A stretch of DNA of 64,000 bases from Pseudarthrobacter sp. W1I19. GTDB taxonomy: Bacteria; Actinomycetota; Actinomycetes; Actinomycetales; Micrococcaceae. The stretch covers positions 3,348,001 to 3,412,000 of the forward strand of contig NZ_JAUSZR010000001.1 of the NCBI RefSeq assembly GCF_030817835.1, given 5' to 3'. Positions 3-13,347 of the stretch are shown piece by piece. Under the pieces are notes generated by a model. That model was not told the origin of the DNA and searched no databases. It saw only the letters and a list, made by a program, of their open reading frames with translations. Numbering within the stretch: position 1 is the stretch's first letter; each line of letters starts with the position of its first letter. A program made the position numbers and the translations under genes.

Positions 3-467
3 CTTCACCCTGCTCCCGTCCGTGCAGTCGCCACCCCCAGTCATGGAACTTGGTCCGAATGGACCCCGTTTGACGATGCCCTTAAAGTCGCACCGCGATT
101 TCCCGGCGTTTAGATGTTCCGGATCGCAGCGGAACCTCATCGCGGCCCTGTCTACATAGGCATGGCGGGAGAAAGGAAGGGCAATGGGCTCCGTGGCCGA
201 CTGGCAATCTACGCAAGCGGCAAGGGAGCCGGCTCCGGGTTGGGAGAGCATGCTTTCGACAGGGCATTGGAAGACCCGAAGTGGCTCCAAGCACGGCTGG
301 ACGAAGCTCATGCAGGCACTCCCATGAGGGCGAAGGAAGCAGCGCGTTCAGCAATTGACCATGCAGGACTGGAAGTGCGCTGGCAGACGCTTGAGACCAG
401 AGCCCAGGCCCTTCAGGTGGAAGCTCAACTGATCAACGAATACAGGAATCAGCTCTGGAACCGCTGA
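3..467 (+). pseudogene. GIY-YIG nuclease-like gene interrupted by an amber stop in the GIY motif (5' end outside window)
   Basis: The frame starting at base 3 is open for 36 codons, reaches TAG at 111-113, and continues open to the stop at 465-467. Joined, it reads PRFPGV-stop-MFRIAAEPHRGPVYIGMAG, which is the start of a GIY-YIG fold: the stop occupies the tyrosine of GIY (GVY), and YIG follows about 13 residues later. The downstream part has the usual GLRGRL, Y-x-SGKG and a late conserved Glu (LINEYRN). One base (TAC or TAT to TAG) explains the lesion. An ATG directly follows the stop at 114, so a 117-residue product could be made by restart, but it would lack the catalytic GIY tyrosine and the preceding strand. 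The 5' end lies before the window. Alternatives are a sequencing error or amber suppression. Confidence 0.75.
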
Positions 468-516
468 TACGACAGACAACTCCGCCGGTCACTTACCGCG
501 CCCTCCTGAGCCTTTA

Positions 517-1239
517 TCAGCTGCCCAAGTGCCATGAATAGCTGGCATCGTTCCAGTTGACAGTTGCCGAAAAGCGGTAGCCTGAGGATGACCCGTCAGC
601 TTCGGTCTTGTTGACTGCGATGCATTGGAAGGTCCCGGTGATGGCCGTCAAGTCATCGGACGAACCTCCACCAAGAGGGGTGCAGGATGCCCGGGTGATT
701 GGCCCCTCGAGGACTCCTTTGGCGACACGGGACTCGGCGTCCTTCAGGATGGAATCTTCTAGGGATGTCACTATCAGCTTCCGCTGGGCGCGTTTGGTTG
801 CATCTGCTGCCTGTTTGGCAGCGGCCGCGGCCTGGGATGCCCGCGTAGCTTCCGCCTGACGTTTGTTTTCCGCTTCGGCCGCCGACGCTGCCGCAGCCTT
901 CTCTGCATTGACCTGGTTTGCGTGCTGAATATTAAGTGAAATGGCAATCCCGGCTACCGCAATAATGAGAACGGCTGCAGCTATAGCCACGAGGCGCTTA
1001 TTCACATTGGCGAAACGCCGTCGCGCGACATATGGCGTGCCACAACTCGGGCAGTAACCACCGACGGTCAGACTTTGCACACTGCATTTAGGGCAGACCT
1101 TTGTCTGTGGCTCTAGGGAATCCGTTGAGTTTGGCGTTCCGGCAGGGAAGGCGGTGTTGCTGCCGGAGACATCTTCCTCAGGCTCCTCCGGACGAGGCGG
1201 ACCGCCCTGAGGTGAATTGTTAGTTGCTGAAGTCGTCAC
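517..1239 (-). CDS. Zinc-ribbon, single-pass membrane protein with extracytoplasmic C-terminal domain
   Basis: A 240-residue protein starting at GTG (1239), with GGGAG about 8 nt upstream. It has a low-complexity Pro/Ser/Thr N-terminus, a four-cysteine zinc ribbon (CPKC at 49-52, CPSC at 63-66), one membrane segment at about 83-102, an Ala/Lys/Glu-rich segment at about 105-152 likely to be helical or coiled coil, and a small C-terminal domain with two cysteines (C186 and one near 207). That layout suggests a cytoplasmic ribbon connected through the membrane to an external domain. It lies 45 nt downstream of the DUF4234-like gene on the same strand, probably the same transcript. The family is not recognised beyond the ribbon and the function is unknown. 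Confidence 0.75.
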   Translation of the reverse strand: MTTSATNNSPQGGPPRPEEPEEDVSGSNTAFPAGTPNSTDSLEPQTKVCPKCSVQSLTVGGYCPSCGTPYVARRRFANVNKRLVAIAAAVLIIAVAGIAISLNIQHANQVNAEKAAAASAAEAENKRQAEATRASQAAAAAKQAADATKRAQRKLIVTSLEDSILKDAESRVAKGVLEGPITRASCTPLGGGSSDDLTAITGTFQCIAVNKTEADGSSSGYRFSATVNWNDASYSWHLGS

Positions 1240-1284
1240 AGTGCATCTCCCTTTGCCCGGTTTCTGAATCAGTCAGGTAGGAAG

Positions 1285-1614
1285 TCAGGCGGAGGCCGGC
1301 AAGGTGAGCGGGGCTGGTGCGACTTTTCGGTTGAACTCGTGCTGCACTATGGCTGAACCGATGGTCCCGAGAAGGAGCATCAGCCAAAAAGCAGCATGAC
1401 GTCCGAGACCACGACGCGTGAAGGCTTCGACTCCCACAGAGTATTTCCATAGCCAAACGATGTTGGCGATAGGCAGGACCAGCAACCAAGCGGTGGGTAT
1501 GCCCGTGCCGTACTTATTCATTTCGTTCTTCGTTTTAACACTCCAAACCAAGGAGTAGATACCGAAAGTGACGAGAGGCAAAAGTAGGGGAGCTGCGATG
1601 CTGCGGTATTTCAT
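1285..1614 (-). CDS. DUF4234-like small membrane protein
   Basis: A 109-residue protein with three or four hydrophobic segments (about 8-25, 42-60, 77-95). The N-terminal pattern (TFGIYSLVWSVKTKNEMN) matches DUF4234, where a T-x-GIY-x-x-x-W motif is followed by a polar stretch with an EMN-type triplet. AGGAG lies just upstream of the ATG at 1614. The gene is first of a two-gene minus-strand unit with the zinc-ribbon protein. The two partners, a zinc-ribbon protein and a DUF4234 protein, suggest a small membrane assembly; this is inference only. It is divergent from the AAA+ operon. Confidence 0.75.
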   Translation of the reverse strand: MKYRSIAAPLLLPLVTFGIYSLVWSVKTKNEMNKYGTGIPTAWLLVLPIANIVWLWKYSVGVEAFTRRGLGRHAAFWLMLLLGTIGSAIVQHEFNRKVAPAPLTLPASA

Positions 1615-1931
1615 AATTCTCCTAGGTACGTTTTATGAACTCTCGGAGTAATACCGTCGGCGCAACACAGCGTCGTAGATTTCCCCCGAAAGAGACGGTA
1701 TCCGACGGCCGTTATGCGGATCGGCGAATCTGCGCAAATCTTGAGGTGATCCTGCGGGAAACGTCATATTGAAGAGTCGCAGTGACTTTTTCCTTGAGCG
1801 CGAGATGGCCGCTCCTCATCCCTCGGGCCTGGATACGTGGCATTCAACTCGCGCCCTCGTTGCGTGCCTTTCGTACTTGCGTTGCTTCAGCCGCCGTTTT
1901 TGCCCTTCACCGCGGTGGAAGTTAGTGGGAT
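1615..1931. promoter_or_regulatory. Divergent intergenic region between DUF4234 gene and AAA+ operon
   Basis: About 317 bases without a supported gene. It must hold promoters for both directions. It is AT-richer than the flanks. I saw no clear operator, riboswitch or hairpin terminator; small open frames here have no ribosome site and were not accepted. Confidence 0.4.
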
Positions 1932-3614
1932 ATGCTTCCTCCAGTTGTGACAGAAGTTATATTGGGGGCATATGTGAATTCGAAGACGCCACTGAAGTTC
2001 GGGGCCACACTCGTGGAGTTGATCCGGGCCAGGCACCCGATCCTTCTCGTCGAGACCCACGAAGGTGACAGGGTAGTCGCCGCGGCGGAAGCCGTCGCGG
2101 TCAGCCCGGACATTCGTCGTCAGCGGAGGGTCGTCACTTACACCGTTTCGAGGGGACTGCACGCCCCCGGTCAGATGACGGGAAAGCCCACGGCTCCCGA
2201 CGCTGCCCTAGCAGAAGCGATAAAGACTCAAGAGCCGACCATATTCGTCTTCTTCGATCTGCACCACTTCCTAGGATCGCAGGGACGCCCAGCCGAGGCC
2301 ACCATGGTGCGTGCAGTGCAGGACGCAGCGACTGCGTTTCGCACGGGAGAAGTCCCGCATACTCTCATCATCGTTTCACCGGGAATGACGCTTCCGCCTG
2401 ACCTGGAAAAGGAAGTCACTGTTGTTGACCTTCCTTTGCCTACAGCAGGGGAAATCGAGGGTGTTCTGGATGAGATAGTCAACGCGAACGCGGCATCGAT
2501 CGTCGTTGATCTGAGCACGGATGAACGTCAGAGGCTCATCCAAGCAGCACAGGGCCTCACGCTTGGCGAGGCAGAAAATGCCTTCGCACGCGCCATCGCT
2601 TCGGACCGTCGACTGGACGCTTCTGACATCGCTCTGGTCCTTGACGAAAAGCGCCAGACCATCAGGAAATCAGGACTGCTGGAGTTCATCACGCCTGAAG
2701 GTTCGATGAACGACGTCGGAGGCTTGGAAAATCTGAAGAAATGGCTGGAAAAGCGGAACGGCTCGTGGCTGCCCGAAGCCCAGCGCTGGTCCATCCCGGC
2801 GCCGAAAGGTGTCCTCATAACGGGCATCCCCGGCTGCGGCAAGAGCCTGACAGCGACATGCATGGCGACGCTCTGGGGTCTGCCCCTACTCCGCCTAGAT
2901 GTCGGCCGAGTCTTCTCCGGCCTCGTAGGATCCAGCGAGCAAAATATGCGGGGAGCTCTCAGGCTGGCTGAGGCTGTCTCGCCCTCCATCTTGTGGATAG
3001 ATGAAATTGAAAAGGGCTTTGGTTCCAGCGGCAGTGGTGACTCGGGCACCAGCCAGCGGGTCTTCGGTACATTTTTGACCTGGATGCAGGAGAAAAAGAA
3101 TCCGGTCTTCGTCATCGCCACCGCAAATAAGATCGATACCCTTCCGCCAGAGTTCCTCCGCAAGGGCCGCTTCGACGAGATCTTCTTCGTGGACTTGCCA
3201 ACCAGAGAGGAACGCGTCCACATCTGGCGCATCCAGCTTGAGAAGAGACTCACCGCGGGGTCTGCGGCGAGTGGCGATTTCGAGATCAACAGCGACTCCC
3301 TGGGCTTCCTTGCGGAACATACAGAAGGTTTCTCAGGTGCAGAAATTGCCGAAGCGGCCGTCAGTGCCTGCTTCGAGGCTTATTCTGAACGCCGGCGGTT
3401 AAACGAAAAAGACCTCCGACGGGCGATCACCAACACTGTCCCCTTGTCGGTCACCCAAGCCGAGCAGATCAAGGGAGTCCGAGATTGGGCTTCACAGCGT
3501 GCCGTGGCAGCAACGTCGACGAGTTCCAGGGGCGATTACTCCACCAGCGGGTCAGCAGCGCCAGCAGACGTCAACTCTTGGCGTGGTGGTCGGCAGATTG
3601 ACTTCGGGGACTAG
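1932..3614 (+). CDS. Ycf46-like AAA+ ATPase, head of a five-gene operon
   Basis: A 560-residue protein. The first 250 residues form an N-terminal domain like that of Ycf46 proteins, with a degenerate P-loop-like layout (LLVETHEGDR, IFVFFDL at about 104-110). The AAA+ module has Walker A GIPGCGKS (298-305), Walker B ILWIDEIE (353-360), sensor-1 Asn399 in ATAN, and the RKGRFD arginine-finger region (410-415). The C-terminal tail is Ser/Gly-rich. The family is widespread but poorly characterised. The gene starts the operon AAA+/DUF1257/DUF2997/HhH/radical SAM with only 3 nt before the next gene, so all five are probably one functional unit. A role as a remodelling ATPase on the small partners is inference. 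Confidence 0.85.
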   Translation: MLPPVVTEVILGAYVNSKTPLKFGATLVELIRARHPILLVETHEGDRVVAAAEAVAVSPDIRRQRRVVTYTVSRGLHAPGQMTGKPTAPDAALAEAIKTQEPTIFVFFDLHHFLGSQGRPAEATMVRAVQDAATAFRTGEVPHTLIIVSPGMTLPPDLEKEVTVVDLPLPTAGEIEGVLDEIVNANAASIVVDLSTDERQRLIQAAQGLTLGEAENAFARAIASDRRLDASDIALVLDEKRQTIRKSGLLEFITPEGSMNDVGGLENLKKWLEKRNGSWLPEAQRWSIPAPKGVLITGIPGCGKSLTATCMATLWGLPLLRLDVGRVFSGLVGSSEQNMRGALRLAEAVSPSILWIDEIEKGFGSSGSGDSGTSQRVFGTFLTWMQEKKNPVFVIATANKIDTLPPEFLRKGRFDEIFFVDLPTREERVHIWRIQLEKRLTAGSAASGDFEINSDSLGFLAEHTEGFSGAEIAEAAVSACFEAYSERRRLNEKDLRRAITNTVPLSVTQAEQIKGVRDWASQRAVAATSTSSRGDYSTSGSAAPADVNSWRGGRQIDFGD

Positions 3615-3617
3615 GCC

Positions 3618-4046
3618 ATGAGTCTCGAAGTCCTCCTCATCCCCCTTGGGATTGCCGCCATCGCGGCTATCCGCGAAGCGCGTAGCACTGATCTCTGCGA
3701 GAAGTGCAAGACCACCCGGATCAAGGACCAGCAACTGCTCCACGACGCGCTCCTTGCAATGGGCGCCACCAGCCTCAGCGTCGCAGAAGGGCGCATTACC
3801 GGCGACAGCCCTTACGGCCGGATCACTTTTCAACGGATCGGTGAACTGTTCCTCGGGCGTGTCGATCGCGCCGACGACCAGGTCACTGACAACATGCTGG
3901 CTGCCTTGGACATGACCGTTGGTGCCGTGCTGCAGCAAAGAACGATCGCTTCCTTGCACGCCCGGGCCGCGGAGATGGGGATGACCCTGGTCTCCCAGAC
4001 GGCAGCAAACGGAGAAGTTCAACTCGTTTTCGAACAGGCCACATAA
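3618..4046 (+). CDS. DUF1257-like (Ycf35-type) protein
   Basis: A 142-residue protein. The C-terminal 40 residues (LQQRTIASLHARAAEMGMTL then NGEVQLVF) match the end of DUF1257 proteins, where a helix is followed by a dG-x-I-x-L strand; the KDQQLLHDALLAMG segment fits the front of that family. Unusual is the N-terminus: a hydrophobic stretch (about 4-18) and a CEKC pair (27-30), absent from typical DUF1257 proteins, which may bind a metal or Fe-S cluster. Start ATG is 3 nt after the AAA+ stop; the stop overlaps the next start (TAATG). The association of AAA+, DUF1257 and DUF2997 genes is seen elsewhere in bacteria; the function is not known. Confidence 0.6.
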   Translation: MSLEVLLIPLGIAAIAAIREARSTDLCEKCKTTRIKDQQLLHDALLAMGATSLSVAEGRITGDSPYGRITFQRIGELFLGRVDRADDQVTDNMLAALDMTVGAVLQQRTIASLHARAAEMGMTLVSQTAANGEVQLVFEQAT

Positions 4047-4267
4047 TGCAAAAGAAGACCATAACTATCACGGTTTCAGCCTCCGGATCAATCACTGCTG
4101 AGGCCAATGGTCCGGGCCCAGCCTGCGTAGATGAGCTGGCGGCGATTCAGGCACTCCTCCCCGACGCGGTCATTGCGGATTCACGCCTGACTCCGGCCTA
4201 CTTCCAAACCGCCACACAAACAGTGGCACATCAGCAACTACAGCATGAGGGGGACAACGGACGATGA
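4046..4267 (+). CDS. DUF2997-like small protein
   Basis: A 73-residue protein. The start MQKKTITITVSASGSITAEA and a later G-P-A-C match DUF2997, whose members begin with a basic strand, a V-s-x-dG-x-i turn and a G-x-x-C segment. The ATG overlaps the previous stop by one base (TAATG), and its own stop overlaps the next start by four (ATGA), so translation is coupled on both sides. The single cysteine (Cys29) could contact the Fe-S protein encoded two genes downstream; that is inference. No enzymatic motif is visible. Confidence 0.6.
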   Translation: MQKKTITITVSASGSITAEANGPGPACVDELAAIQALLPDAVIADSRLTPAYFQTATQTVAHQQLQHEGDNGR

Positions 4268-5058
4268 CGCCCGAAGAAAAACTGTGTTCACGAACATGGC
4301 GGCTGCGGAACAGTGCCGGAGTCCTGTGGAGTATTCTCTCCTTCGGCTTACTTACGGGCGTGGGAATTCTTATCCGCGGGGTGAAAGCCAAGAACAAGCT
4401 GTGGATCCAAACGGGCATAGGGTTCCTCGTTTTGGGGGTCGGCCTCATGGTGGCGACCGGAACGTATGACTCCGGCACGAAGGAAGCACCTATTCGTTCC
4501 ACGGCGAGCACCGTTTGGGGATGGGTATGGTTCCTCACCTTCATCGGTGGACTCGTGGCAACCTTCATCACAAACCGGAAATGGCTGGTGTGGAAGGCAC
4601 ACGCTGGCGACACCAAGTGGTATGCCCAAGCCGGTAGTTCCGCACCCTCGGTTAGTACCAACCCTGCCGCAGGCTACGATCCCAACGCCGCGTCCGCCGC
4701 CTTCAGGTCAGTCGTTCCTCCACCTCCGGCACCTCCTGTGCAATACGCTCCGCCAGCCCAAATTTTTTCGGGTCATAGTGCCCAGTCGGCCGCCATTGAC
4801 GTGAATGCGGCACCCACCCAGGACCTCGTTGCTGCCCTCGGAATCGATCATGCCGTTGCCGAACGTATCGTGCAGGCACGTCAAAGCCAAGGACAGTTCA
4901 CCTCCTTCGAGCAACTCATGGCCAGGGCCCAGATACAACCGCACATTCTCATTCCACACCGTCACAGGCTTGTCTTCGGAAATTCAAACAGTGGGGCTAC
5001 GCCGTCCCCGGACCAGCCACAGCCAACACGGCGCAGCGCAAATCAAGCAGCCCGTTGA
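4264..5058 (+). CDS. Membrane protein with C-terminal helix-hairpin-helix (ComEA-like) domain
   Basis: A 264-residue protein with three membrane segments (about 18-38, 46-65, 83-103), a Pro/Ala-rich linker (about 145-170), and a C-terminal helix-hairpin-helix module from about 178 to 243. The latter begins IDVNAAPTQDLVAALGID, close to the ComEA/OB-fold-associated repeat N-aA-t-x-e-L-x-x-l-pGi, and a second pair follows (FTSFEQLMARAQIQ). HhH modules bind DNA non-specifically or mediate protein contacts. The gene overlaps its neighbours by 4 nt on each side (ATGA; TTGA), fixing it in the AAA+ operon. Membrane anchoring of an HhH domain beside an AAA+ and a radical SAM protein is an unusual combination. 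Confidence 0.75.
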   Translation: MTPEEKLCSRTWRLRNSAGVLWSILSFGLLTGVGILIRGVKAKNKLWIQTGIGFLVLGVGLMVATGTYDSGTKEAPIRSTASTVWGWVWFLTFIGGLVATFITNRKWLVWKAHAGDTKWYAQAGSSAPSVSTNPAAGYDPNAASAAFRSVVPPPPAPPVQYAPPAQIFSGHSAQSAAIDVNAAPTQDLVAALGIDHAVAERIVQARQSQGQFTSFEQLMARAQIQPHILIPHRHRLVFGNSNSGATPSPDQPQPTRRSANQAAR

Positions 5059-5693
5059 CTCGACCTTTGACGACGGACGTGCTGCGCATCGCGCGTGTCC
5101 TTCATGGGACGACAGCCGAAGGCCCTGGCCTACGCACAGCTGTCTGGTTTCAGGGATGTAGCATCCGCTGCATGGGATGCATTAACCCTCACCTCTTTAG
5201 CCCCAGCGGCGGAAGCGATGTGACGGTCAGCGACATCGTTCTTGGTGCCATGGCCGGGGAAGTCGAGGGCCTCACGCTCATCGGGGGTGAGCCCTTTGAC
5301 CAGCCTTCCGCCGGTGCAAAGCTTGTCACAGAGGCGCAGGAACAAGGGCTTGGTGTCATCGCGTTCTCCGGCTACGAGTACGAGATGCTGCGTGACAGGG
5401 ACGAAGACACCAAAAGGTTCCTTGCCGGGATTGATCTGCTCGTCGACGGCCCCTACCAGGCATGGAAGCAGGAAACAGGTCGAGCATTGGTCGGTTCCAC
5501 CAACCAGCGCTTCATCCATATCTCCGACCGGTATCGCTCCTACCAGCCTGATATGGCTGCCAACCGCGTTGACATACGGATTCTTCCTGATGGTTCCATC
5601 GACGTGGCCGGCTTCCTTGACACGGATGCGCTCAAGAACCTACTCGAAGCAACGGGAACGAGCAGAAAACCGCGACGAGCAATCGCCGAGTAG
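5055..5693 (+). CDS. NrdG-like radical SAM / 4Fe-4S single-cluster protein
   Basis: A 212-residue protein with Cys35-x3-Cys39-x2-Cys42 (GCSIRCMGC), the radical SAM cluster motif, and GGEP at 77-80, the SAM amino-group motif. Length and layout fit the Fer4_12/NrdG-like activating group rather than long radical SAM enzymes. The start is TTG at 5055 overlapping the previous stop (TTGA), typical of translational coupling; there is no better start downstream because the cluster motif lies close to the N-terminus. No anaerobic ribonucleotide reductase gene is nearby, so an NrdG role is unlikely; a partner within the same operon is more likely its substrate. Expected to act in the cytosol. Confidence 0.8.
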   Translation: MTRPLTTDVLRIARVLHGTTAEGPGLRTAVWFQGCSIRCMGCINPHLFSPSGGSDVTVSDIVLGAMAGEVEGLTLIGGEPFDQPSAGAKLVTEAQEQGLGVIAFSGYEYEMLRDRDEDTKRFLAGIDLLVDGPYQAWKQETGRALVGSTNQRFIHISDRYRSYQPDMAANRVDIRILPDGSIDVAGFLDTDALKNLLEATGTSRKPRRAIAE

Positions 5694-6197
5694 AAAGGCG
5701 ACAACCGCTGAGCGCGTCCTCTCCTAACATCCTGCACAAAATTCGAGTTGTGGAAGGCTAAGTAACCCGTCACCCTATCAATCCCGCGGGCCTCGGGGTT
5801 ATTCTGCTCGAGCGCTACATAGTCCTCTCCGGAACTTGTCCTCGCTGCACGTACTTTCCGTAATTCCGGATTCGGGGCAATAACAATAGAACCGTGCCTT
5901 CAAAATTAAGGACAAGGGGCTCAGGGGGTTGCGCGATCTGGTACCGCGCTAGCCGGGTGGCACCGTGCATCCCTCCTAGGGCGACTATGCACATCACCCG
6001 TGGCAGCATGAAGAACCCAAGTGCCGCCAACGGTACATCTGGCTCCATGATTCCGTGGTTGCCGGCAGACTTTGTCTCGTTGTTTCTGTACACGAGAAAA
6101 TTGCAGCCGGCTTAGGTGGATTGACTTTGACGCATTCTTAAAAAATGATACTTGTGCCATATTCTGTCATTCGGTCTTCTATCCGAATTGGGGGAAT
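5694..6197. other. Long intergenic stretch after the AAA+ operon
   Basis: About 500 bases without a supported gene. A weak hairpin at 5780-5800 may end the operon. A 92-codon minus-strand frame (5815-6093) has a hydrophobic segment but no ribosome site and no recognisable family, so it is not called. Composition is mixed, with an AT-rich patch near 5870-5910 and before 6198, where the promoter of the next gene probably lies. Confidence 0.4.
5780..5800 (+). terminator. Weak hairpin downstream of the radical SAM gene
   Basis: AATCCCG pairs with CGGGGTT (7 bp, one G-T) across a 7-nt loop, followed by ATTCTG. There is no strong T-tract, so this is a tentative intrinsic terminator about 90 nt past the operon stop. 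Confidence 0.3.
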
Positions 6198-6638
6198 ATG
6201 CAATTCAAGCCATCAGCCGGCATCTTTGTTACAGGCCTGGTCCTATCGATCATCGGCACTGTTTTCGGATTTATCGGGATCGGTATCGCCGGTTCGAGCC
6301 GTTCCTACTACTCCAGCGGTGCATCAGCCGGTGGAGGCTTCTTAGCTTTCCTTGGCTTCGCTACCGCCTTGATCGGAGTGGTTCTGATTTACGTTGGTGC
6401 CAGCCGTGCTCTCAAAATCATTGATGCGTTGCCATTCGTGCTGAACTTCAACGGGCAGGGGCAGTCTTCCCACATACCCGCCCACCAGCCAGCTACCCAT
6501 CAGCCATCTGCTCAGCAGATCCAGCAATCTCCTCCCGCGCCGAAGCCACAGCAGCAGCAACCCAACGCCCGACCGCAGACCCCTCAGCACCTCGTGTACA
6601 ACGAGCCACAGGGCGAGCAGCAGCCGCCAGTTCAATAG
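6198..6638 (+). CDS. Small membrane protein with Gln/Pro-rich tail
   Basis: A 146-residue protein starting at ATG 6198, just after a GGGGGAAT ribosome site; the open frame extends 42 codons further upstream, but those have no ribosome site. Two membrane segments (about 8-28 and 46-68) flank a short Gly/Ser/Tyr-rich loop (SSRSYYSSGASAGGG). The C-terminal half is almost entirely Gln, Pro, His and Ala, probably disordered. No family is recognised. The architecture, a small membrane core with a low-complexity tail, resembles the DUF4352-type protein at 19.8 kb but without its globular domain. Function unknown. Confidence 0.7.
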   Translation: MQFKPSAGIFVTGLVLSIIGTVFGFIGIGIAGSSRSYYSSGASAGGGFLAFLGFATALIGVVLIYVGASRALKIIDALPFVLNFNGQGQSSHIPAHQPATHQPSAQQIQQSPPAPKPQQQQPNARPQTPQHLVYNEPQGEQQPPVQ

Positions 6639-7018
6639 CTGGGGTTCGCCGTTGGAGGTTGGGTCGTAGGGCGCCCGTACGGCTGGTCTCTCCCCTGGAA
6701 CTCGTCAACGAGGTCCGTGCCTTCTTAGTACAGGGCGATGCTCCGCATGTGGTCCAGGTCCCCCCCTTTGGCCACGCTCCTCCGCTCTATGTTGCAAACG
6801 GACGAGCGCGGACGCGCCTGGCAGAACGCCCTCATACGAGGGGCCTTGAGGTTGCTAATGCTTACAGGGAAGCCGAAAGTGCGGCCGCCGCGCCAAGTTG
6901 TCAGAAGCCGCAATCCGCGTGCCGCCGTCGCACTTTCGCGGTGCGACTCCAAACACATCCGGCCTCCCCGCCAGAGCATGGGAGGCCGGATGTGTTCGGC
7001 TCCATCGGAACAATGTCA
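6639..7018. other. Convergent intergenic region
   Basis: About 380 bases between the small membrane protein and the convergent CoA-transferase gene. It holds the strong hairpin at 6953-6995. Short open frames in both strands lack ribosome sites and family signals. Nothing else was seen. Confidence 0.5.
6953..6995 (-). terminator. Perfect 16-bp hairpin ending the CoA-transferase operon
   Basis: ACACATCCGGCCTCCC (6953-6968) pairs fully with GGGAGGCCGGATGTGT (6980-6995) across an 11-nt loop. It lies about 25 nt past the minus-strand stop at 7019 and could work in both directions, since the plus-strand gene at 6198-6638 converges on it. There is no long T-tract. Confidence 0.75.
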
Positions 7019-8170
7019 CTACGCTGACACACGTTCTTCTTCGAGCCAGCTGAGAATGGCTTCGGTGTCGGCGCCGACGGCGGGCACTGGCTCCAGCCTG
7101 GGTACCCAGCCCGCTGATTCCACCACGGGGAGAAAGGCATTCACTGTTCCCGCCTCCGTTTCCACTGTCGAGATGCGGTTCCGCGCTAAAAGCTGGGGAT
7201 GTTGATCCAGGTCGGCAACATCATTCATCCGGCCCTGGGCTATTCCCGCTTCGTCCAAAGCCTCTGCCACATCGAGGACAGGCCGCTTACCCAGCTGTTC
7301 ATCGATGAGCAGGTCGAGGTCAGCGCGGTTGGCGATCCGGTTGCTGACCGTGTCGAAGCGCGGATCCGCAGAGAGCTCGGGCTTATTCAGCACCGAGGTG
7401 CAGAAGCGTTCCCACTCGCGTTCGTTCTGAACCGCGATCAGGAGTGAACCGTCAAGGCAGGAGACAGGGCCGTAGGGGGCGATGGATGCGTGGTGTGCTC
7501 CTGCCCGGACCGGGCGGCTTCCCCCGTAACGGGCGTAGTAGTACGGGAAGCCCATCCATTCCGTGAGGGAGTCCAGGAGGGATACGGACAGCTGGCGGCC
7601 CTTTCCCGTGACTTCCCGTTCATACAGGGCGCTGAGGATTCCACTGTAGGTGTACATGCCCGCTGCGATGTCCGCGATGGAGATGCCCGCCTTCGCCGGT
7701 TCATCCTCCGTGCCCGTCACCGAGAGGAATCCGGCTTCCGCCTGGATCAGCAGGTCGTAGGCCTTTTTATTTCCAAGCGGGCCACCGCTGCCGTATCCAC
7801 TCAGGCTGCAGGTGATCAGCTGCGGAAACTCCCCGCACAGCTCTTCTGGAACAAAACCGAGCCGTTCAATCGCCCCGGGGGCGAGGTTCTGGACAAAGAC
7901 GTCGGCCTTAGAGATCAGCCGGCGCAGCGCTTCCTTGCCGCTTTCTGTTTTGAGGTCCAGGACGATCGACTTCTTGTTCCGGTTAAGCCATATGAAGTGG
8001 CTGGATAAACCATGGACGGTTTCGTCATAGTCCCTAGCAAAGTCGCCTCTTCCCGGCCGTTCTACTTTGATGACGGTGGCCCCGAGGTCGGCGAGTTGGC
8101 GCGTGGCGAACGGCACGGCTACGGCCTGTTCGAGGGCGACAACCGTGATTCCTGTGAGTGGCAGCGTCAT
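7019..8170 (-). CDS. CaiB/BaiF family (class III) CoA-transferase
   Basis: A 383-residue protein of normal length for family III CoA-transferases. It has the N-terminal G-x-x-V-x-x-x-E start, the family's VIKVERPGRGD (33-43) and LNRNKKSIVLDLK (62-74), and Asp167 in SIADIAAG, the position of the catalytic aspartate that forms the mixed anhydride. It moves CoA between an acyl-CoA donor and a carboxylic acid. It is the last gene of the minus-strand unit and overlaps the cupin gene by 4 nt (ATGA). With the CitE-like lyase across the control region, activation of a C4-C5 diacid or hydroxy acid followed by retro-aldol cleavage is plausible, but the substrate cannot be read from the sequence. Confidence 0.88.
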   Translation of the reverse strand: MTLPLTGITVVALEQAVAVPFATRQLADLGATVIKVERPGRGDFARDYDETVHGLSSHFIWLNRNKKSIVLDLKTESGKEALRRLISKADVFVQNLAPGAIERLGFVPEELCGEFPQLITCSLSGYGSGGPLGNKKAYDLLIQAEAGFLSVTGTEDEPAKAGISIADIAAGMYTYSGILSALYEREVTGKGRQLSVSLLDSLTEWMGFPYYYARYGGSRPVRAGAHHASIAPYGPVSCLDGSLLIAVQNEREWERFCTSVLNKPELSADPRFDTVSNRIANRADLDLLIDEQLGKRPVLDVAEALDEAGIAQGRMNDVADLDQHPQLLARNRISTVETEAGTVNAFLPVVESAGWVPRLEPVPAVGADTEAILSWLEEERVSA

Positions 8171-8724
8171 CGGACCGGGCTTTCGTCGTGGTGGTACCTT
8201 CCTTCAGCGTCAGTGGTGGCTCCGGGGACGGGGATGCCCCAGAACTTCGAGCGGAGGTCCTGGTGGACGGCAGGGGTGTTCACCGCAAAGATCTCGAAGT
8301 CCTCCTCGTTTTCGGCGGGGTTGAATACTTCGTGCCGCACTCCTGTCCGCTGGTGGAAGGTGTCCAGTGGGCCGGCGTCATAGAGCTCCCCATCGATCCG
8401 GACCTTGCCGTGGCCGGAGATGACGAGGTAGATCTCATCCCCGTAACCGTGCACATGTTCCGGGAAGCCATGGCCGGGCTTGATCCGGATCAGGCAGTAA
8501 TCCATCTGCCGGTTGGGCAGGGCAAGGAAATTAATGGGCAGGTCGGTGGGGCAGCCTGGGAACTCTGCGGTGATGACCGGTTCGCGCAGGTTGCCCTTCG
8601 GAGAGAACCCCGCGTCGTTGCGGGCCTTCTCGAGGGTGGCGTCGAACTCCCGTGCTTTGTCCGCCAGGGGCCCGGTCAGCCGGGAGAATCCGTTGTCGGT
8701 AAAGAAATCTGTGGCGTCGCTCAT
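8167..8724 (-). CDS. Cupin domain protein
   Basis: A 185-residue single-domain cupin. The metal site is visible in PEHVHGYGDEIYLVISGHG (His, His, Glu of motif 1), with a later His-rich segment (DTFHQRTGVRHEVFNP) giving motif 2. The sequence around (DTFHQRTGVRHEVFNPAE) suggests a small-molecule dioxygenase or isomerase rather than a seed-storage fold, but no close family is recognised. It overlaps the dehydrogenase upstream (stop/start 8721-8724) and the CoA-transferase downstream by 4 nt, so its product is needed in step with theirs. It may act on an intermediate of the same pathway, or stabilise a reactive aldehyde or keto acid. Confidence 0.75.
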   Translation of the reverse strand: MSDATDFFTDNGFSRLTGPLADKAREFDATLEKARNDAGFSPKGNLREPVITAEFPGCPTDLPINFLALPNRQMDYCLIRIKPGHGFPEHVHGYGDEIYLVISGHGKVRIDGELYDAGPLDTFHQRTGVRHEVFNPAENEEDFEIFAVNTPAVHQDLRSKFWGIPVPGATTDAEGRYHHDESPVR

Positions 8725-9812
8725 GACATGGTCCTTTCAGGTTCTTCGGCGAACAGGACGTCGCCTTCATTCAATGCGTCGGCAGCGGGCTCGACGATGG
8801 TCCGGCCAGGTGCACGGCCGGGTGACCCGAACGTGGCGAGGGCGCGGTCCACGTCGTCCAGGCCGATGACCTGCCCGATCATGGTGTCCACGTCGATGAG
8901 CCCGCGGCTCATGAAGCCAAGCACGTCTTCAATCTCGTTCTTGTCGAAGGCGTAGGAGCCCATAACCGTTTTTTCCTCGCGGACCATGATGCTTCCGGCC
9001 GCAGTGTTCCAGGAGTGGGGACTGTGGCCAACCACCACCACGCGGCCTCCACGGTCCACCAGGCGTGTGGCGGCCTGGACGGTCTCGGGACGCCCGACGA
9101 AGTCCAGGGCATAAACAGCGTTTCGGGTCCCGGCCCAGGCAGGATGGTCAGCGTCCTCCAGTGCTTCGGCGGGGATACTGTGCGTCGCTCCGAGGCTCAT
9201 GGCCAGCTCGAGGGCTTTCGGATCGGCGTCCACGGCAATGATCGGGTAGGCGCCGCGGATCTTGAGCAACTGCACGGCGCTCAGGCCCAGGCCGCCCACC
9301 CCGATCACGATGCAGCCCTCCCCCGCCTGCACCTGCGCGCGTTTGGAGATTGCGTGCAGGGAGGTGGCGAAGGCGTCCGTGGCCAGGGCCGCGTGGCGGA
9401 AGGGAACTGGGTCCGGAATGCGGATGAGGTTCCGTTCGGGCACCACCATGTACTCCGAGAACCCGCCGTCGCGTACGATGCCGAGCCCCTCCCTGCTGAG
9501 GCAAAGCGAGGTCCTGCCTGCCACGCAGTACCGGCACTGTCCGCACGTGATCAGGAAGTTCACCGCAATTCGGGCGCCGGCCTCGATCCCGGTAGAACCG
9601 GGGCCGGTTTCGCATACCGTGCCGGCGATCTCGTGGCCCAGGACTCTGGGGTAGTGAGGCAGGGGCGTCCGGCCGTTGAGGATGTGCAGATCGGAGCCGC
9701 ACAGGCCGGCGGCTTCGACCCGTATCAGTACCTCGTCACCGGTTGGGCGCGGGACGGGAATGTCATCCACTTGGACGCCATTGCCCACCTGGTGCAGACG
9801 GACGGCTTTCAT
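8721..9812 (-). CDS. Zinc-dependent MDR alcohol/polyol dehydrogenase
   Basis: A 363-residue medium-chain dehydrogenase. The catalytic zinc ligands are Cys38 (GLCGSDLH) and His60-Glu61 (GHE); the structural zinc is bound by Cys90, 93, 96 and 104. The nucleotide-binding GVGGLG follows near residue 171, with an acidic residue after it that favours NAD. It resembles threonine/sorbitol/galactitol dehydrogenases of COG1063, but the substrate is not determinable. It is between the MBL protein and the cupin with 4-nt overlaps at both ends, so it oxidises a hydroxyl group within the local pathway. Confidence 0.88.
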   Translation of the reverse strand: MKAVRLHQVGNGVQVDDIPVPRPTGDEVLIRVEAAGLCGSDLHILNGRTPLPHYPRVLGHEIAGTVCETGPGSTGIEAGARIAVNFLITCGQCRYCVAGRTSLCLSREGLGIVRDGGFSEYMVVPERNLIRIPDPVPFRHAALATDAFATSLHAISKRAQVQAGEGCIVIGVGGLGLSAVQLLKIRGAYPIIAVDADPKALELAMSLGATHSIPAEALEDADHPAWAGTRNAVYALDFVGRPETVQAATRLVDRGGRVVVVGHSPHSWNTAAGSIMVREEKTVMGSYAFDKNEIEDVLGFMSRGLIDVDTMIGQVIGLDDVDRALATFGSPGRAPGRTIVEPAADALNEGDVLFAEEPERTMS

Positions 9813-10828
9813 TTCCGGGCTGCTCCTTCACGCGCTTCGGCGTCGAGGTCCACCGCAGGGGTGGGCCCTGCCTGCAGGGACACCGAAGAGCCTGTGACGT
9901 TCAGGAGGAAACGGTCCGGGATGGCTCGGGCGATGTCCATAATCGCCTCCATGCCGGTGCAGTGGCTGGGAGCGACGACTTCGACGTCGAGGTCCTTCAG
10001 CGCCTGAATGGTCTTTTCGGTCTTGGCTTTGGGCGAGCCCGGGAAGCCCAGATGGAATCCGCCAAAGGCCCCGATGACCCGCTCAATACCGGTGATCTTC
10101 TTCGCGTAGTTAATCGTGTTGATGATGCCCGCGTGGCTGCACCCGGCGAGGATGATGATGCCGTCACCCAATTGGATAACCAGGGCCTGATCATCGGGAA
10201 CCACGTCCGCCTCCACCTTGCCCTCGCGGACGTGCAACAGCGCGTTGGGCGCGGACAGGTCCGTGGGCGGAACCTCGAAGTCGCTCTCCCGGGGAATCGG
10301 ACCTGTCGCAACGAGCCCGGGCCCGATCTCCAACGGCTGCGTGTGCTCCACCAGCATTCCGCCACGGGATGAGATCGATTCCTTGGTCAGTCCGTAGTTG
10401 AAGTACGGCGCCACCTGGCCGGAGGCGAGCCGAAGGTAGCGGGGGGCGAAGGCGTCGGGGTGCACGGAAATCGGCAAGGGCGCTTCCCGCGCGTCGAGCA
10501 GTCCTTGCAGTCCCCCGTAGTGATCCGGGTGCCCGTGGCTAAGGACCACGTGGTCCAGTTCGTTGGCGGCGAGGTGAAGTGTTGAGAGGTTGTGCAGCAG
10601 AACGTTTGAGGACATGCCGGTGTCGAACAGTGCCCGGTAGGTGTACCTGCCCCAGCTGACTTCCACGTGCAGCGCGATGCCATTTTCGCCCAGCACGCAT
10701 TGGGTTTTCGGATCGAAGTGGTGGGCGAGCCCCGTGCGGGTGACGTTGGGAAGGTCCGCAAGCAGCATGTCGACGTGGTTGTCGGTCACCATCGTCAGCT
10801 TGACCCGGTCAACTCCAGGCATTTTCAA
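9809..10828 (-). CDS. Metallo-beta-lactamase-fold hydrolase (COG1237-like)
   Basis: A 339-residue protein. HxHxDH is present as His98-Gly-His100-Pro-Asp102-His103, preceded by ALFDTG, and CSHAGIIN occurs near residue 230, typical of the COG1237 group that contains beta-ribofuranosylaminobenzene phosphate synthase-like proteins. It probably binds two metal ions and hydrolyses an ester, thioester or lactone. Its place upstream of the dehydrogenase (4-nt overlap) suggests a thioesterase or lactonase step. A gap of about 110 nt separates it from the transporter stop, so it may also have its own ribosome supply: TAGGAGTTGAAA lies directly before its ATG. Confidence 0.8.
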   Translation of the reverse strand: MKMPGVDRVKLTMVTDNHVDMLLADLPNVTRTGLAHHFDPKTQCVLGENGIALHVEVSWGRYTYRALFDTGMSSNVLLHNLSTLHLAANELDHVVLSHGHPDHYGGLQGLLDAREAPLPISVHPDAFAPRYLRLASGQVAPYFNYGLTKESISSRGGMLVEHTQPLEIGPGLVATGPIPRESDFEVPPTDLSAPNALLHVREGKVEADVVPDDQALVIQLGDGIIILAGCSHAGIINTINYAKKITGIERVIGAFGGFHLGFPGSPKAKTEKTIQALKDLDVEVVAPSHCTGMEAIMDIARAIPDRFLLNVTGSSVSLQAGPTPAVDLDAEAREGAARK

Positions 10829-10940
10829 CTCCTAGTTATGTATATGGACTCTCGTGGCGGCAGGTGAGGCCGGGTCCCCGGCCATCCGCTTCGAGCCTGA
10901 AGGCAGGAGAAGGGATGACCGGGGTTTGTTTCGGCTGCGG

Positions 10941-12320
10941 TTACTGCGAGGGCACTGACTGCACAGCGTTCGTGCGGGAGTTCGGGCCTTGGCCCTCGGT
11001 GTTTTCGTTGAAGCGCTCGTCGCTTCCCTGGTGCGCGTCTGAACGGAAGTACTTGGAGTAGTAGACCGCCGTGAGGCTGACCAGGGCCATGACTGCCATG
11101 AACGTCGCGATCGGCCACCAATGCCCTGACCAGGCGAACAGTGCCGTGGCGAGGAGTGGCGCGGTGCCGCCCAGCAGCGCACCGCTGACTTCGCGGGCGA
11201 ACGCGACGCCCGAGTAGCGGATGGCCGGAGGGAACAGTTCGGTCAGGAATGCGGCCTGGGCGGCCATGGAAGTGGCCACCGCACCGACGAAGCAAACAAC
11301 CAGTGCCAGCAGGATCACAACAGGCTGGCGGGTATCGATGAGCATGAACATGGGGAATGCCCACACCGCGCCGAAGGCAGACCCGAAGAGGAACAGTTTG
11401 CGGCGGCCGATCTTGTCCCCGAGACGTCCGAACAGGGGCATGAATGACGCCCCGCCGAGCAGGAGCGCGGCGTTGATGCCGAGGGCCAGGACAGCTGCGA
11501 GACCAAGGTTATTGGTCAGGTAGCTCAAGGCCCAGACCTGGGGAATGTAGGCAAAGCCGGACAGGATGAAGTTCGATCCGAGGGCAATCAGCAGCCGGCG
11601 CTTCTCGGTCCGGAAGAGGCGGACCAGCGGGATCCGCTCAATCTCCTTGCCCTGCTTTGCCTTCTCGAAGGACTTGGTTTCGTTGACCTTGCGCCGGATG
11701 TACATGCTGATGAGCAGCATCACGAGGCTGAGGATAAACGGAACCCGCCAGCCCCAGGTGTAGAAGGCATCGCCGGTCATGGCGAGCACCGCCTGGAACG
11801 ACAGGAGCCCGAGGGCCGAGCCGATCCATACGCCGGCGCCGGACCAGGACGCGTAGAAGCCGCGACGGGCAGACGGTGCCGACTCCGAGGAGAGGATGAC
11901 CGCTCCGGCGTATTCCGCTCCGGCTCCAAGGCCCTGGACAATGCGAAGCAGCACCAGCAGCAGCGGGGCTCCCAGGCCGATGGTGGTGTAGCCGGGCAGC
12001 AGTCCGATCAGCGCCGTGCTGATCCCCATGATGGTCAGCGTTGCGATCATCACCGGCTTGCGGCCGATCTTGTCACCCAGATGTCCGAACACCATGCCAC
12101 CGAACGGGCGGGCAAAATAGCCGACGGCGAAGGTTGCGAAAGCGGCCAGCAAGCCGGCTGCGGGGTCGGTGGTCCCAAAGAAGTAGGTCTTGAATATCAG
12201 GGCCGCTGCGGCACCGTAGAGGGCGAAGTCATACCATTCGACAAGGCTGCCGACGGCGGAAGCTGCGGCGGCCCGCCGGGCCTCGCGTTCCCCCGCTGGG
12301 GACTGGACTTTCGAATCCAT
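10941..12320 (-). CDS. MHS-family MFS transporter (KgtP/ShiA/ProP type)
   Basis: A 459-residue, 12-helix transporter. Start is ATG 12320 with AAAGGAG nearby; the frame is open further upstream but without a ribosome site and across the control region. Family marks: EWYDFALYG in helix 1, GRKPVM-type loop 2-3 (GHLGDKIGRKP), and R-x-x-QGLGAGAEY in helix 4, the metabolite:H+ symporter signature. Substrates of this group are organic acids such as ketoglutarate, shikimate, citrate or dicarboxylates. It opens the catabolic unit and most likely imports its substrate. The C-terminal tail after helix 12 is hydrophilic and Asn/Ser-rich. Confidence 0.88.
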   Translation of the reverse strand: MDSKVQSPAGEREARRAAAASAVGSLVEWYDFALYGAAAALIFKTYFFGTTDPAAGLLAAFATFAVGYFARPFGGMVFGHLGDKIGRKPVMIATLTIMGISTALIGLLPGYTTIGLGAPLLLVLLRIVQGLGAGAEYAGAVILSSESAPSARRGFYASWSGAGVWIGSALGLLSFQAVLAMTGDAFYTWGWRVPFILSLVMLLISMYIRRKVNETKSFEKAKQGKEIERIPLVRLFRTEKRRLLIALGSNFILSGFAYIPQVWALSYLTNNLGLAAVLALGINAALLLGGASFMPLFGRLGDKIGRRKLFLFGSAFGAVWAFPMFMLIDTRQPVVILLALVVCFVGAVATSMAAQAAFLTELFPPAIRYSGVAFAREVSGALLGGTAPLLATALFAWSGHWWPIATFMAVMALVSLTAVYYSKYFRSDAHQGSDERFNENTEGQGPNSRTNAVQSVPSQ

Positions 12321-12681
12321 TGTTGCTCCTTTGCACGTGGATCTGATCTTGCCGGCTGTTTTTGTGGCCGGCGAAGGGTTGCCGCGTTTTTCCAGTGCTG
12401 GGTTCTGCTGGCGCTGGTGGCAACGCGAACGGGAGACGCCGACTGGGAAGGGAAGTGGTTCCTTCTGTCGGCTGCGAGCCTTGCCGGAGGACCTACCGCG
12501 GCTGTGCCGCAGGACCCCATCAGTCGCCCCTTGTTGACTCCTGCCATCCACAGTGACAAAGAAAATGCACATCGTCAAGAGATAATCGATAATCTTTCAA
12601 AAGAATGCATTCTTTGCTAGTCTTAGGCATAGTTCAAGCTAGTCTGATGTGTAAGCACCAGACCGGAACCGAAGGAGCAGC
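12321..12681. promoter_or_regulatory. Shared control region of the divergent catabolic locus
   Basis: About 360 bases between the transporter start and the GntR start. It is GC-rich next to the transporter and AT-rich at 12560-12660, where promoters are likely. The AT-rich part contains tandem GATAATC copies (12581-12594) and the perfect palindrome at 12600-12615. Possible plus-strand promoter elements follow at TTGCTA (12614) and TAGTCT about 25 nt later. Confidence 0.6.
12600..12615. promoter_or_regulatory. Perfect 16-bp palindrome, likely GntR operator
   Basis: AAAGAATGCATTCTTT is fully self-complementary. It lies 67 bp before the GntR start and about 280 bp before the divergent transporter start. 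GntR regulators of the FadR type bind short palindromes in such divergent regions; assignment to this regulator is inference from position. Confidence 0.6.
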
Positions 12682-13347
12682 GTGGCAACCAAGAGGGATT
12701 TGATCGCGGCCGAACTGCGGCGGCAGATCAGCACCGGTGAACTCGCGCGCGGGGCGCGGGTGCCCCAGAGCCAGTTGGCATCGAAATTTTCAACGAGCAT
12801 CACTCCTGTGCGCGAAGCGCTGGGACTCCTCGAGGCCGAGGGCGTCTTGGTTGCAGAGCCGCACCACGGTGTACGCGTGGCGACAGCCAACCTCGCCCAG
12901 GTCAAGACGGTGTATCTGATGAGGCAGTTGGCCGAGCCCTATGCAATGCAGCGGGCTGTGTGGAATATGAGCCGCCGGGACCTCCAGGTGGTGACAGAGC
13001 TCTTCGAGCACATGGAGAAATCGGAAAGCGTCGGGGACAAGCCGGCGTTCAACGAGGCCAACCGGAAGTTCCACTTCGCCTTTTATGACCGGTGCGGGGA
13101 CGACGGGCTTCGGACGGAGATTGCGATGCTGTGGCAGCGGTACCCGTGGGACCTGCTGCAGGTCATCGAACACCGGGCCCCCGATTCGCATGAGGAACAC
13201 CGTCGTATCCTTGATGCAGCACGGGCCGGTGACCTGAACCTAGTGGCCACGGCCACGCGCGACCATCTGAAGCACGGGTACCTGGCTCTGGCCTCCCGGC
13301 TCTCCGAGGAACCCCAGCTGGACCCTTTCCCGGTGAACGATGACTAG
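12682..13347 (+). CDS. GntR-family regulator with FCD domain
   Basis: A 221-residue regulator starting at GTG 12682 with GAAGGAG 4 nt upstream. The winged helix (about 5-70) contains LARGARVPQSQLASKF and ITPVREALGLLEAEGVL, the GntR recognition helix. The C-terminal all-helical FCD domain (about 77-210) has the usual metal-site residues: N-x-x-FH (NRKFHFAF), HEEHRRILDA and RDHLKHG. FCD domains sense carboxylic acids. It overlaps the CitE-like gene by 8 nt and faces the transporter unit, so it probably represses both directions until the substrate or its CoA ester is present. Confidence 0.88.
   Translation: MATKRDLIAAELRRQISTGELARGARVPQSQLASKFSTSITPVREALGLLEAEGVLVAEPHHGVRVATANLAQVKTVYLMRQLAEPYAMQRAVWNMSRRDLQVVTELFEHMEKSESVGDKPAFNEANRKFHFAFYDRCGDDGLRTEIAMLWQRYPWDLLQVIEHRAPDSHEEHRRILDAARAGDLNLVATATRDHLKHGYLALASRLSEEPQLDPFPVNDD

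Follow-up and report, generated by a model that had tools for sequence, protein, structure and literature searches.

A recurrent five-gene cassette around a Ycf46-type AAA+ ATPase and a C-terminal tail common to two of its proteins

What could a Ycf46-type AAA+ ATPase, two small DUF proteins, a helix-hairpin-helix (HhH) membrane protein and a radical SAM protein do together? We addressed this question for a five-gene locus of Pseudarthrobacter sp. W1I19, located at 1932-5693 on the + strand of a 64,000-nt stretch of DNA (G000:C1:3348001-3412000, hereafter the window) in a genome assembled as one contig of 4.81 Mb. The nearest named relatives of its proteins are those of Pseudarthrobacter, Arthrobacter and Paenarthrobacter. 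We propose that this cassette may build a membrane-tethered AAA+ machine which remodels proteins and uses a C-terminal docking tail, a reading to which we give a probability of roughly one half, slightly under even odds. The features of the locus, in order, are:

1932..3614, + strand: Ycf46-type AAA+ ATPase (Pfam AAA; start perhaps GTG 1974)
3582..3611, + strand: C-terminal tail of the AAA protein, RGGRQIDF plus GD (ending conserved in relatives)
3618..4046, + strand: DUF1257 (Ycf35)-like protein, 142 aa (HHalign to a DUF1257 set)
4046..4267, + strand: DUF2997 protein, 73 aa (Pfam below cut-off; alignment of 22 sequences)
4264..5058, + strand: HhH membrane protein (HHH_3, hydropathy, alignment)
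5056..5058, + strand: premature TGA ending the HhH gene (stop codon at the 5068-5070 position in relatives)
5055..5693, + strand: NrdG-like radical SAM protein (Fer4_12; start probably TTG 5067)

The five coupled frames and four tight junctions described in the first-pass annotation were all found in place. The AAA stop codon (3612-3614) is separated by 3 nt from the ATG (3618) of the DUF1257-like gene, which meets the DUF2997 gene at TAATG (4044-4048); the DUF2997 and HhH genes overlap at ATGA (4264-4267). The fourth junction, TTGA between the HhH and radical SAM genes (5055-5058), is present as described but arises from a stop found in this window alone, the overlap in relatives sitting at the position of 5067-5070. 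The AAA and radical SAM genes probably start further in than their longest frames. In other loci (L numbers), the longest AAA frame starts at the GTG 1974 position in L022, L023, L025, L026, L029 and L030 and further upstream in L024; at the position of TTG 5067, L022-L026 have a TTG or GTG that overlaps the stop codon of the HhH gene. The profile search of the five proteins proposed in the same annotation, run against Pfam, matched AAA, HHH_3 and Fer4_12; DUF2997 scored below cut-off and gene 2, the DUF1257-like gene, had no match.

The five genes as a unit

Searching from gene 2, we found 19 other loci, distributed over 8 other genomes of the family, 5 genome-collection contigs (7 were found, two being duplicates), 5 plasmids and 1 distant member of the class. 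All five genes occurred in the same order at 19/19 of them, 18 of which are distinct (two plasmids carry identical cassette DNA). The linkage of the five genes, with set and order kept at every locus, exceeds chance. This is the co-occurrence by which the first-pass annotation could be checked, and it supports its proposal of one complex or pathway. Because the search was seeded with gene 2, these counts show the companions of gene 2, not those of the AAA gene. In L020 and L021 the DUF2997 gene was missed by BLAST, and an open frame with its motif lies between genes 2 and 4. The AAA gene is truncated by the contig end in L018, and L022 has broken frames: in this copy from Arthrobacter sp. Hiyo4 (L022 8360-12026), AAA and radical SAM are each split over two frames and the HhH frame ends unlike those of its relatives.

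Within the family, 9 of 197 genomes carry the cassette, this genome among them; a DUF1257-like profile found it in at least 2 of 394 class genomes, a lower bound because 10 candidates were scored in each. When the AAA protein was used as query against 394 class genomes, with 3 candidates scored per genome, 6 genomes gave matches at 1e-70. Two of these, the own genome and G782, carry the cassette, and G707 carries an Hsp70 version with a radical SAM gene; in G515, G558 and G842, the 15-19 kb around the AAA match contained nothing that matched DUF1257, DUF2997 or radical SAM. On one strand of G707 (L087 9115-16734) lie genes for a Ser/Thr kinase-like protein, DUF1257, an unknown protein, an Hsp70-like protein, DUF2997, radical SAM and AAA, the kinase and Hsp70 labels being our reading of the sequence.

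Five plasmid records carry the cassette, three of them typed as conjugative. Among open reading frames (ORFs) of at least 90 aa within 10 kb, compared by BLAST at 1e-6, the most widely shared neighbour occurred at 3 of 18 loci, window included. A divergent gene for a small DUF4234 membrane protein lies upstream of the cassette (window 1285-1614) and is also present at cassette loci L024 and L026. Taken together, the cassette seems to be a self-contained unit that moves horizontally. The pairwise distances of the five proteins correlate over 17 loci (r 0.81-0.97, with 0 of 2000 permutations as high), values which shared descent alone can yield.

A sparse, compact set with hardly shared neighbours, found on plasmids, would also be expected of an anti-phage or inter-element conflict system, in which the AAA protein would sense the invader and the membrane HhH or the radical SAM protein would be the effector. 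IetA models of PADLOC do match the AAA domain (E 5.7e-20), and this genome has, about 8-20 kb upstream, a group of helicase and nuclease genes whose matches are defence-like. However, the IetA NCBIfam score is far below cut-off (57.8 of 510 bits), phages themselves carry AAA, DUF1257 and DUF2997, and no defence enrichment was seen: within 4.5 kb of 17 loci, 11 PADLOC families were matched at 1e-8 among 129 neighbour proteins against 10 among 123 control proteins, these counts being of families and including some weak ATPase matches. We consider the conflict system unlikely, though still a serious alternative. Among ten neighbours inspected singly, one had defence matches (L029:7986-9215, PDC-S48 and others). 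The cassette is not a named PADLOC defence system, its matches being confined to IetA, mad8, TRIP13 and pVip models. IetS, the partner of IetA in IetAS, is a protease, and no protease match was found among the five proteins with Pfam. MoxR-vWA and FtsH-type chaperone conflict systems resemble the cassette in their AAA+ engine, and one subtype includes a radical SAM domain (PMC7159879). They differ in their vWA partner: no vWA match was obtained with Pfam among the five cassette proteins, which sets these apart from the ternary MoxR-vWA systems.

The upstream group itself (L056, G000:C1:3330001-3348000, at 340-11771) comprises a NERD-UvrD helicase, a PD-(D/E)XK protein and a UvrD-PD-(D/E)XK protein with defence-like PADLOC matches. 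In L056, the open frame of a DEAD/ResIII helicase runs on into sigma-70 regions 1.2, 2 and 4, an odd fusion, and an EcsC-family gene follows the group at 12212-13336.

A common tail on the AAA+ and HhH proteins

The product of gene 1 matched Pfam AAA (E 7e-31). Its Walker A, Walker B and LRKGRFDE arginine-finger region are retained in 17/17 orthologues, as for a Ycf46-type AAA+ protein; the name Ycf46 is database-derived, some relatives being assigned to the SpoVK/Ycf46/Vps4 family by JGI. It shares the AAA domain family with p97/CDC48 (its relatives in the PDB are VCP/CDC48) and differs from it in the first, N-terminal half, which by our reading resembles a degenerate AAA domain with no P-loop, the motifs of the C-terminal AAA domain being intact. 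Recruitment through adaptors and short motifs is a principle that it would share with p97/CDC48; DUF1257 and DUF2997 are not known as p97 adaptors.

The product of gene 4 has three hydrophobic stretches within residues 19-102 (three peaks in 16/17 orthologues), followed by a variable linker and a ComEA-like HhH domain at residues 176-227 (4789-4944), matched by HHH_3 (E 9.6e-10) and precomputed as PF12836 in 84/96 homologues. This domain, the ComEA family label of several database entries and the plasmid location of some cassettes would agree with a ComEA-like DNA receptor serving DNA uptake or plasmid biology. Such a role is improbable: although the HhH domain itself is present, the ComEA subfamily model scored 23.1 against a cut-off of 152.4 bits, and in other modules the partner is another protein whose end is similar.

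In the HhH alignment, a conserved C-terminus was recognised after the unalignable linker, and the C-termini of all proteins were then printed. AAA and HhH proteins end alike, with R-x-[ILVF]-[DE]-[FLYI]-COOH (the strict tail), typically RGGRxI[DE]F on AAA. Of 120 AAA relatives, 7 were dropped as short; among the 113 full-length ones, 104 carried the strict tail at the very end, 2 had GD after it and 7 ended otherwise. Among HhH relatives, 66/96 carried the strict tail, 27/96 R-x-L-F-D and 3/96 other ends, a tail being thus retained in 93/96. At the cassette loci, 14 of 17 AAA orthologues ended with the strict tail and in 3 it was followed by GD (window and L024) or GE (L023), and 14 of 17 HhH orthologues had the strict tail, 2 ended RRLFD and the window protein had none. 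In the window, the stop codon of the HhH gene comes 12 bases earlier than in its relatives, and the residues cut off are the family tail; the window copy may be partly impaired, or the early stop may be a sequencing error.

Conservation is concentrated at the extremity. In the 66 strict HhH relatives the last six residues are 76% identical, against 21% for residues 7-12 and 15% for residues 13-30 from the end. The strict tail was found in 0/120 DUF1257 relatives and in 0/242 control ORFs, which were called mechanically, some surely not being genes. It was carried by 20 of 314 ORFs at 17 cassette loci, all 20 being AAA or HhH, in a count where some cassette genes were missed through the non-overlap rule. 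The presence of the same tail on two proteins of one cassette suggests that one pocket is used by both. AAA+ machines that work through adaptors and short tags are already familiar; among the matches listed by full-text searches of the open-access literature, no account of the five-gene cassette or of the tail was recognised.

Two other causes for the tail were considered. A Shine-Dalgarno constraint is unlikely to explain that of AAA, which is kept at 15 loci although the distance to the following gene ranges from -1 to +52 nt. It is also unlikely that RGGR in the AAA tail carries a glycyl radical, these glycines being kept neither in most HhH tails nor in a mycobacteriophage AAA tail.

The two DUF proteins and the radical SAM protein

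Gene 2 gave no match to DUF1257 (PF06868) in the Pfam scan, and PF06868 had no match in this genome nor in any of the 296 phylum genomes searched. With HHalign, it aligned with DUF1257 proteins from Paenibacillus, Bacillus, cyanobacteria and phages over 103 columns (probability 91%, E 1.2e-6); profile comparison with a smaller DUF1257 set gave 86% (E 5e-6). It lies beside DUF2997, the same gene position as in L036 and the phages. Judged by these comparisons, gene 2 is a divergent DUF1257 relative and not a Pfam member. A predicted hydrophobic N-terminal helix, residues 7-26 (3636-3695), precedes the DUF1257-aligned part, and an N-terminal hydropathy peak was seen in 16/17 orthologues; the AlphaFold2 model has a mean confidence (pLDDT) of 80, residues 1-30 averaging under 60. 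The CEKC motif (3696-3707), proposed in the first-pass annotation as one possible radical SAM target, proved not to be essential. CxxC occurs in 113/120 close relatives and, besides the window, at 12/19 cassette loci; it is absent from the seven divergent cassettes L016-L021 and L057, and P0073 has YEKY in its place. CEKC as an obligate site was thus rejected.

Gene 3 matched DUF2997 (PF11211) over model positions 1-47 of 47 with 18.9 bits against a cut-off of 24.1 (E 1.4e-3), and its orthologues in L030-L033 are annotated DUF2997. Gly14, Gly24 and Cys27 (codon 4124-4126) are invariant in 22/22 aligned sequences, and Cys27 is retained in 7/7 cassette copies checked besides, one of which (L030) was already among the 22. 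The GxxC formed by G24 and C27 is shared with accepted DUF2997 members; that this motif defines the family is our own reading.

Gene 5 matched Fer4_12 strongly (E 3.5e-27, 95.8 against a 22-bit cut-off) and Radical_SAM just below cut-off (E 1e-5, 26.3 of 29.5 bits). The motifs expected of the radical SAM superfamily, CxxxCxxC (5157-5180) and GGE within GGEP (5283-5294), are both present. The three cluster cysteines are invariant in 21/21 rows, including proteobacterial and Clostridia relatives, and GGxP and GSxNQ are kept in 21/21, with GGDP in one. Radical SAM orthologues often end arginine-rich (window 5600-5693), an end which could bind nucleic acid or acidic partners.

The best NCBIfam match of this protein is NrdG (TIGR02491), and a Gly_radical gene is present in G782, one of the ten genomes with a cassette, as could be expected if it were a plain activase serving an enzyme elsewhere and linked to the cassette by chance. 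This is strongly disfavoured. The NrdG score is 85.3 against a cut-off of 126.1 bits, and the gene stays with the other four at 19/19 loci. In addition, neither NrdD nor the glycyl-radical domain (Gly_radical) was matched anywhere in the one-contig genome, in searches which found NrdD in 6/14 and Gly_radical in 3/14 control genomes; over the ten cassette genomes, NrdD was matched in 0/10 and Gly_radical in 1/10. The earlier remark that no ribonucleotide reductase target lies near the radical SAM gene was therefore borne out and extends to the whole genome. A glycyl-radical target is rejected for this genome, which suggests that the protein is not a conventional activase.

Intact radical SAM motifs with no known substrate in the genome could instead point to a maturation system, in which the protein would modify DUF2997 at Gly24-x-x-Cys27 (by a thioether, a radical or otherwise) and AAA would release or install the product. 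The invariance of Gly14, Gly24 and Cys27 would agree with this, as would the adjoining DUF2997 and radical SAM genes in Paenibacillus and the published case of conflict systems with FtsH that include a radical SAM domain, for which peptide modification is predicted (PMC7159879). The same three residues are, however, equally invariant in DUF2997 proteins of phages and cyanobacteria taken from records in which Fer4_12 was not matched, so that a radical SAM partner alone does not explain the conservation of Cys27. Maturation of this kind appears rather doubtful.

The wider module and its possible function

AAA relatives lie beside DUF1257 and DUF2997 on plasmids of other phyla, namely in Geminocystis, Pseudanabaena, Planktothrix, Bacillus, P. 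urinalis, Nostoc and Paenibacillus polymyxa. GrpE and Hsp70 accompany the module in Pseudanabaena, and an Hsp70-like gene does so in G707. The Hsp70-like neighbours end PVIKLT (L041) and PVVRLT (L087), which is a resemblance to the tail only. For the other AAA or radical SAM matches, no DUF pair was found in the stretch inspected, by annotation or profiles; mycobacteriophage L053 has the AAA gene, with DUF1257 and DUF2997 not detected in its stretch. The P. polymyxa M1 plasmid (L036) is close to the cassette, with AAA, DUF1257, DUF2997 and radical SAM in the same order followed by two probable membrane proteins that end RVIHF and RVIRL. It differs in that no HhH gene is annotated, its AAA has no tail and its genes do not overlap.

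Five phages (Rhizobium L338C and RHph_I4, Aeromonas HJ05, Agrobacterium JP1, Rhodobacter RcTiptonus) and one R. bangladeshense plasmid with phage genes share the order AAA, a protein of 208-243 aa, DUF1257, DUF2997; in JP1 a short gene is interposed and the DUF1257 match is weak (E 2e-4). Like the cassette, these modules combine AAA, DUF1257 and DUF2997 with a partner of similar end; unlike it, their AAA has no tail, and the partner gave no Pfam match in the two scanned. The six partners end RRAVKL (twice), NRKLKL, RRLRLS, GRKITI and RRALDL, and are 17-33% identical save one pair at 79%.

Other plasmids carry related genes in different company. Polaromonas, Moellerella and Acinetobacter plasmids (L038 1-6621, L039 1-6576, L040 1-6573) have in common a set of an AAA-domain protein, a PIN-domain protein, an unknown, an AAA ATPase and an NrdG-like radical SAM protein. 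On a Treponema succinifaciens plasmid (L034 4360-8584), radical SAM, AAA and a phage baseplate V gene are adjacent, the AAA protein (42% to P0001) ending RKLEM.

In cyanobacteria, a duf2997-ycf35-fed7 cluster is reported (PMC4284462); cells that lack Fed7 withstand oxidative, metal and iron stress less well, and a two-hybrid test showed an interaction of Fed7 with a DnaJ protein. As in the cassette, DUF2997, DUF1257 (Ycf35) and an Fe-S protein adjoin; in contrast, the Fe-S partner is a [4Fe-4S] ferredoxin and not a radical SAM protein, and the cluster as described there lists no AAA and no HhH gene (PMC4284462). In a red-algal plastid survey, the presence of ycf35 and ycf46 is linked to habitat and no function is assigned (PMC5940233).

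What reads the tail, what the radical protein does and what the cassette is for are inferred from these sequence facts, and the proposed remodelling machine could work as follows. Its core engine would consist of an AAA hexamer and the DUF1257-DUF2997 pair, since phages and cyanobacterial plasmids have the trio but not the other two genes; its recurrence with changing partners suggests an engine and adaptors. The tail would dock AAA and the partner to one common putative pocket, most likely on DUF1257/DUF2997 or on AAA itself. The docked partner, here the HhH protein, would be engaged and remodelled at the membrane, where the hydrophobic stretches of the DUF1257-like and HhH proteins would place the work. 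The radical SAM protein, enzyme or sensor, would be the Fe-S partner of the set (in cyanobacteria, DUF2997 and DUF1257 have a ferredoxin gene beside them); it would either modify a cassette protein, Cys27 of DUF2997 being the leading site, or render the machine sensitive to iron and redox state. The role would be accessory, in stress or conflict, rather than housekeeping.

Several observations weigh against this machine. The window HhH protein has no tail, which would mean a dispensable tail, an impaired copy or faulty base calls. Outside the cassette family, the strict tail was present on only 2 of 23 AAA relatives with ends printed, and on 2 of 150 coding sequences (CDS) of 18 plasmid and phage stretches, in both cases the AAA of L034 and L053. 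A looser pattern matched 8/150 CDS against 0/242 controls (AAA of L034 and L053, two Paenibacillus and two Comamonas proteins, and the partners of L051 and L052), with no match among the CDS entered from L035, L041, L042, L044, L047 and L049, all with DUF1257 and DUF2997. A second one matched 1/242 controls and, in seven stretches from phages or phage-like elements, 6 of 56 ORFs, which were one AAA and five partners (the partner ending GRKITI falling outside). All looser patterns were drawn up after the ends had been inspected. Finally, Fer4_12 had no match in L338C and HJ05, the two phages searched, which suggests that the minimal machine does without the radical SAM protein.

A broader proposal is more tentative. 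AAA-DUF1257-DUF2997 could be a widespread and so far undescribed AAA+ machine of bacteria, phages and plasmids that would recognise its partners by a C-terminal tag, about R-x-Phi-x-Phi-COOH. The tag would stay while the partner changes from system to system, being the HhH protein here and elsewhere other membrane proteins, a phage protein or perhaps Hsp70. In the present version AAA would be tagged too, and a radical SAM protein that lacks a glycyl-radical target would have been recruited to act on the machine.

DUF1257 (Ycf35) and Ycf46 are long-standing unknowns of plastid and cyanobacterial genomes. An activase-like radical SAM protein in a genome where no glycyl-radical enzyme was found points to an unrecognised substrate, and a tail linking an AAA+ ATPase to its partner would give a cheap and direct experimental handle on the function of these proteins.

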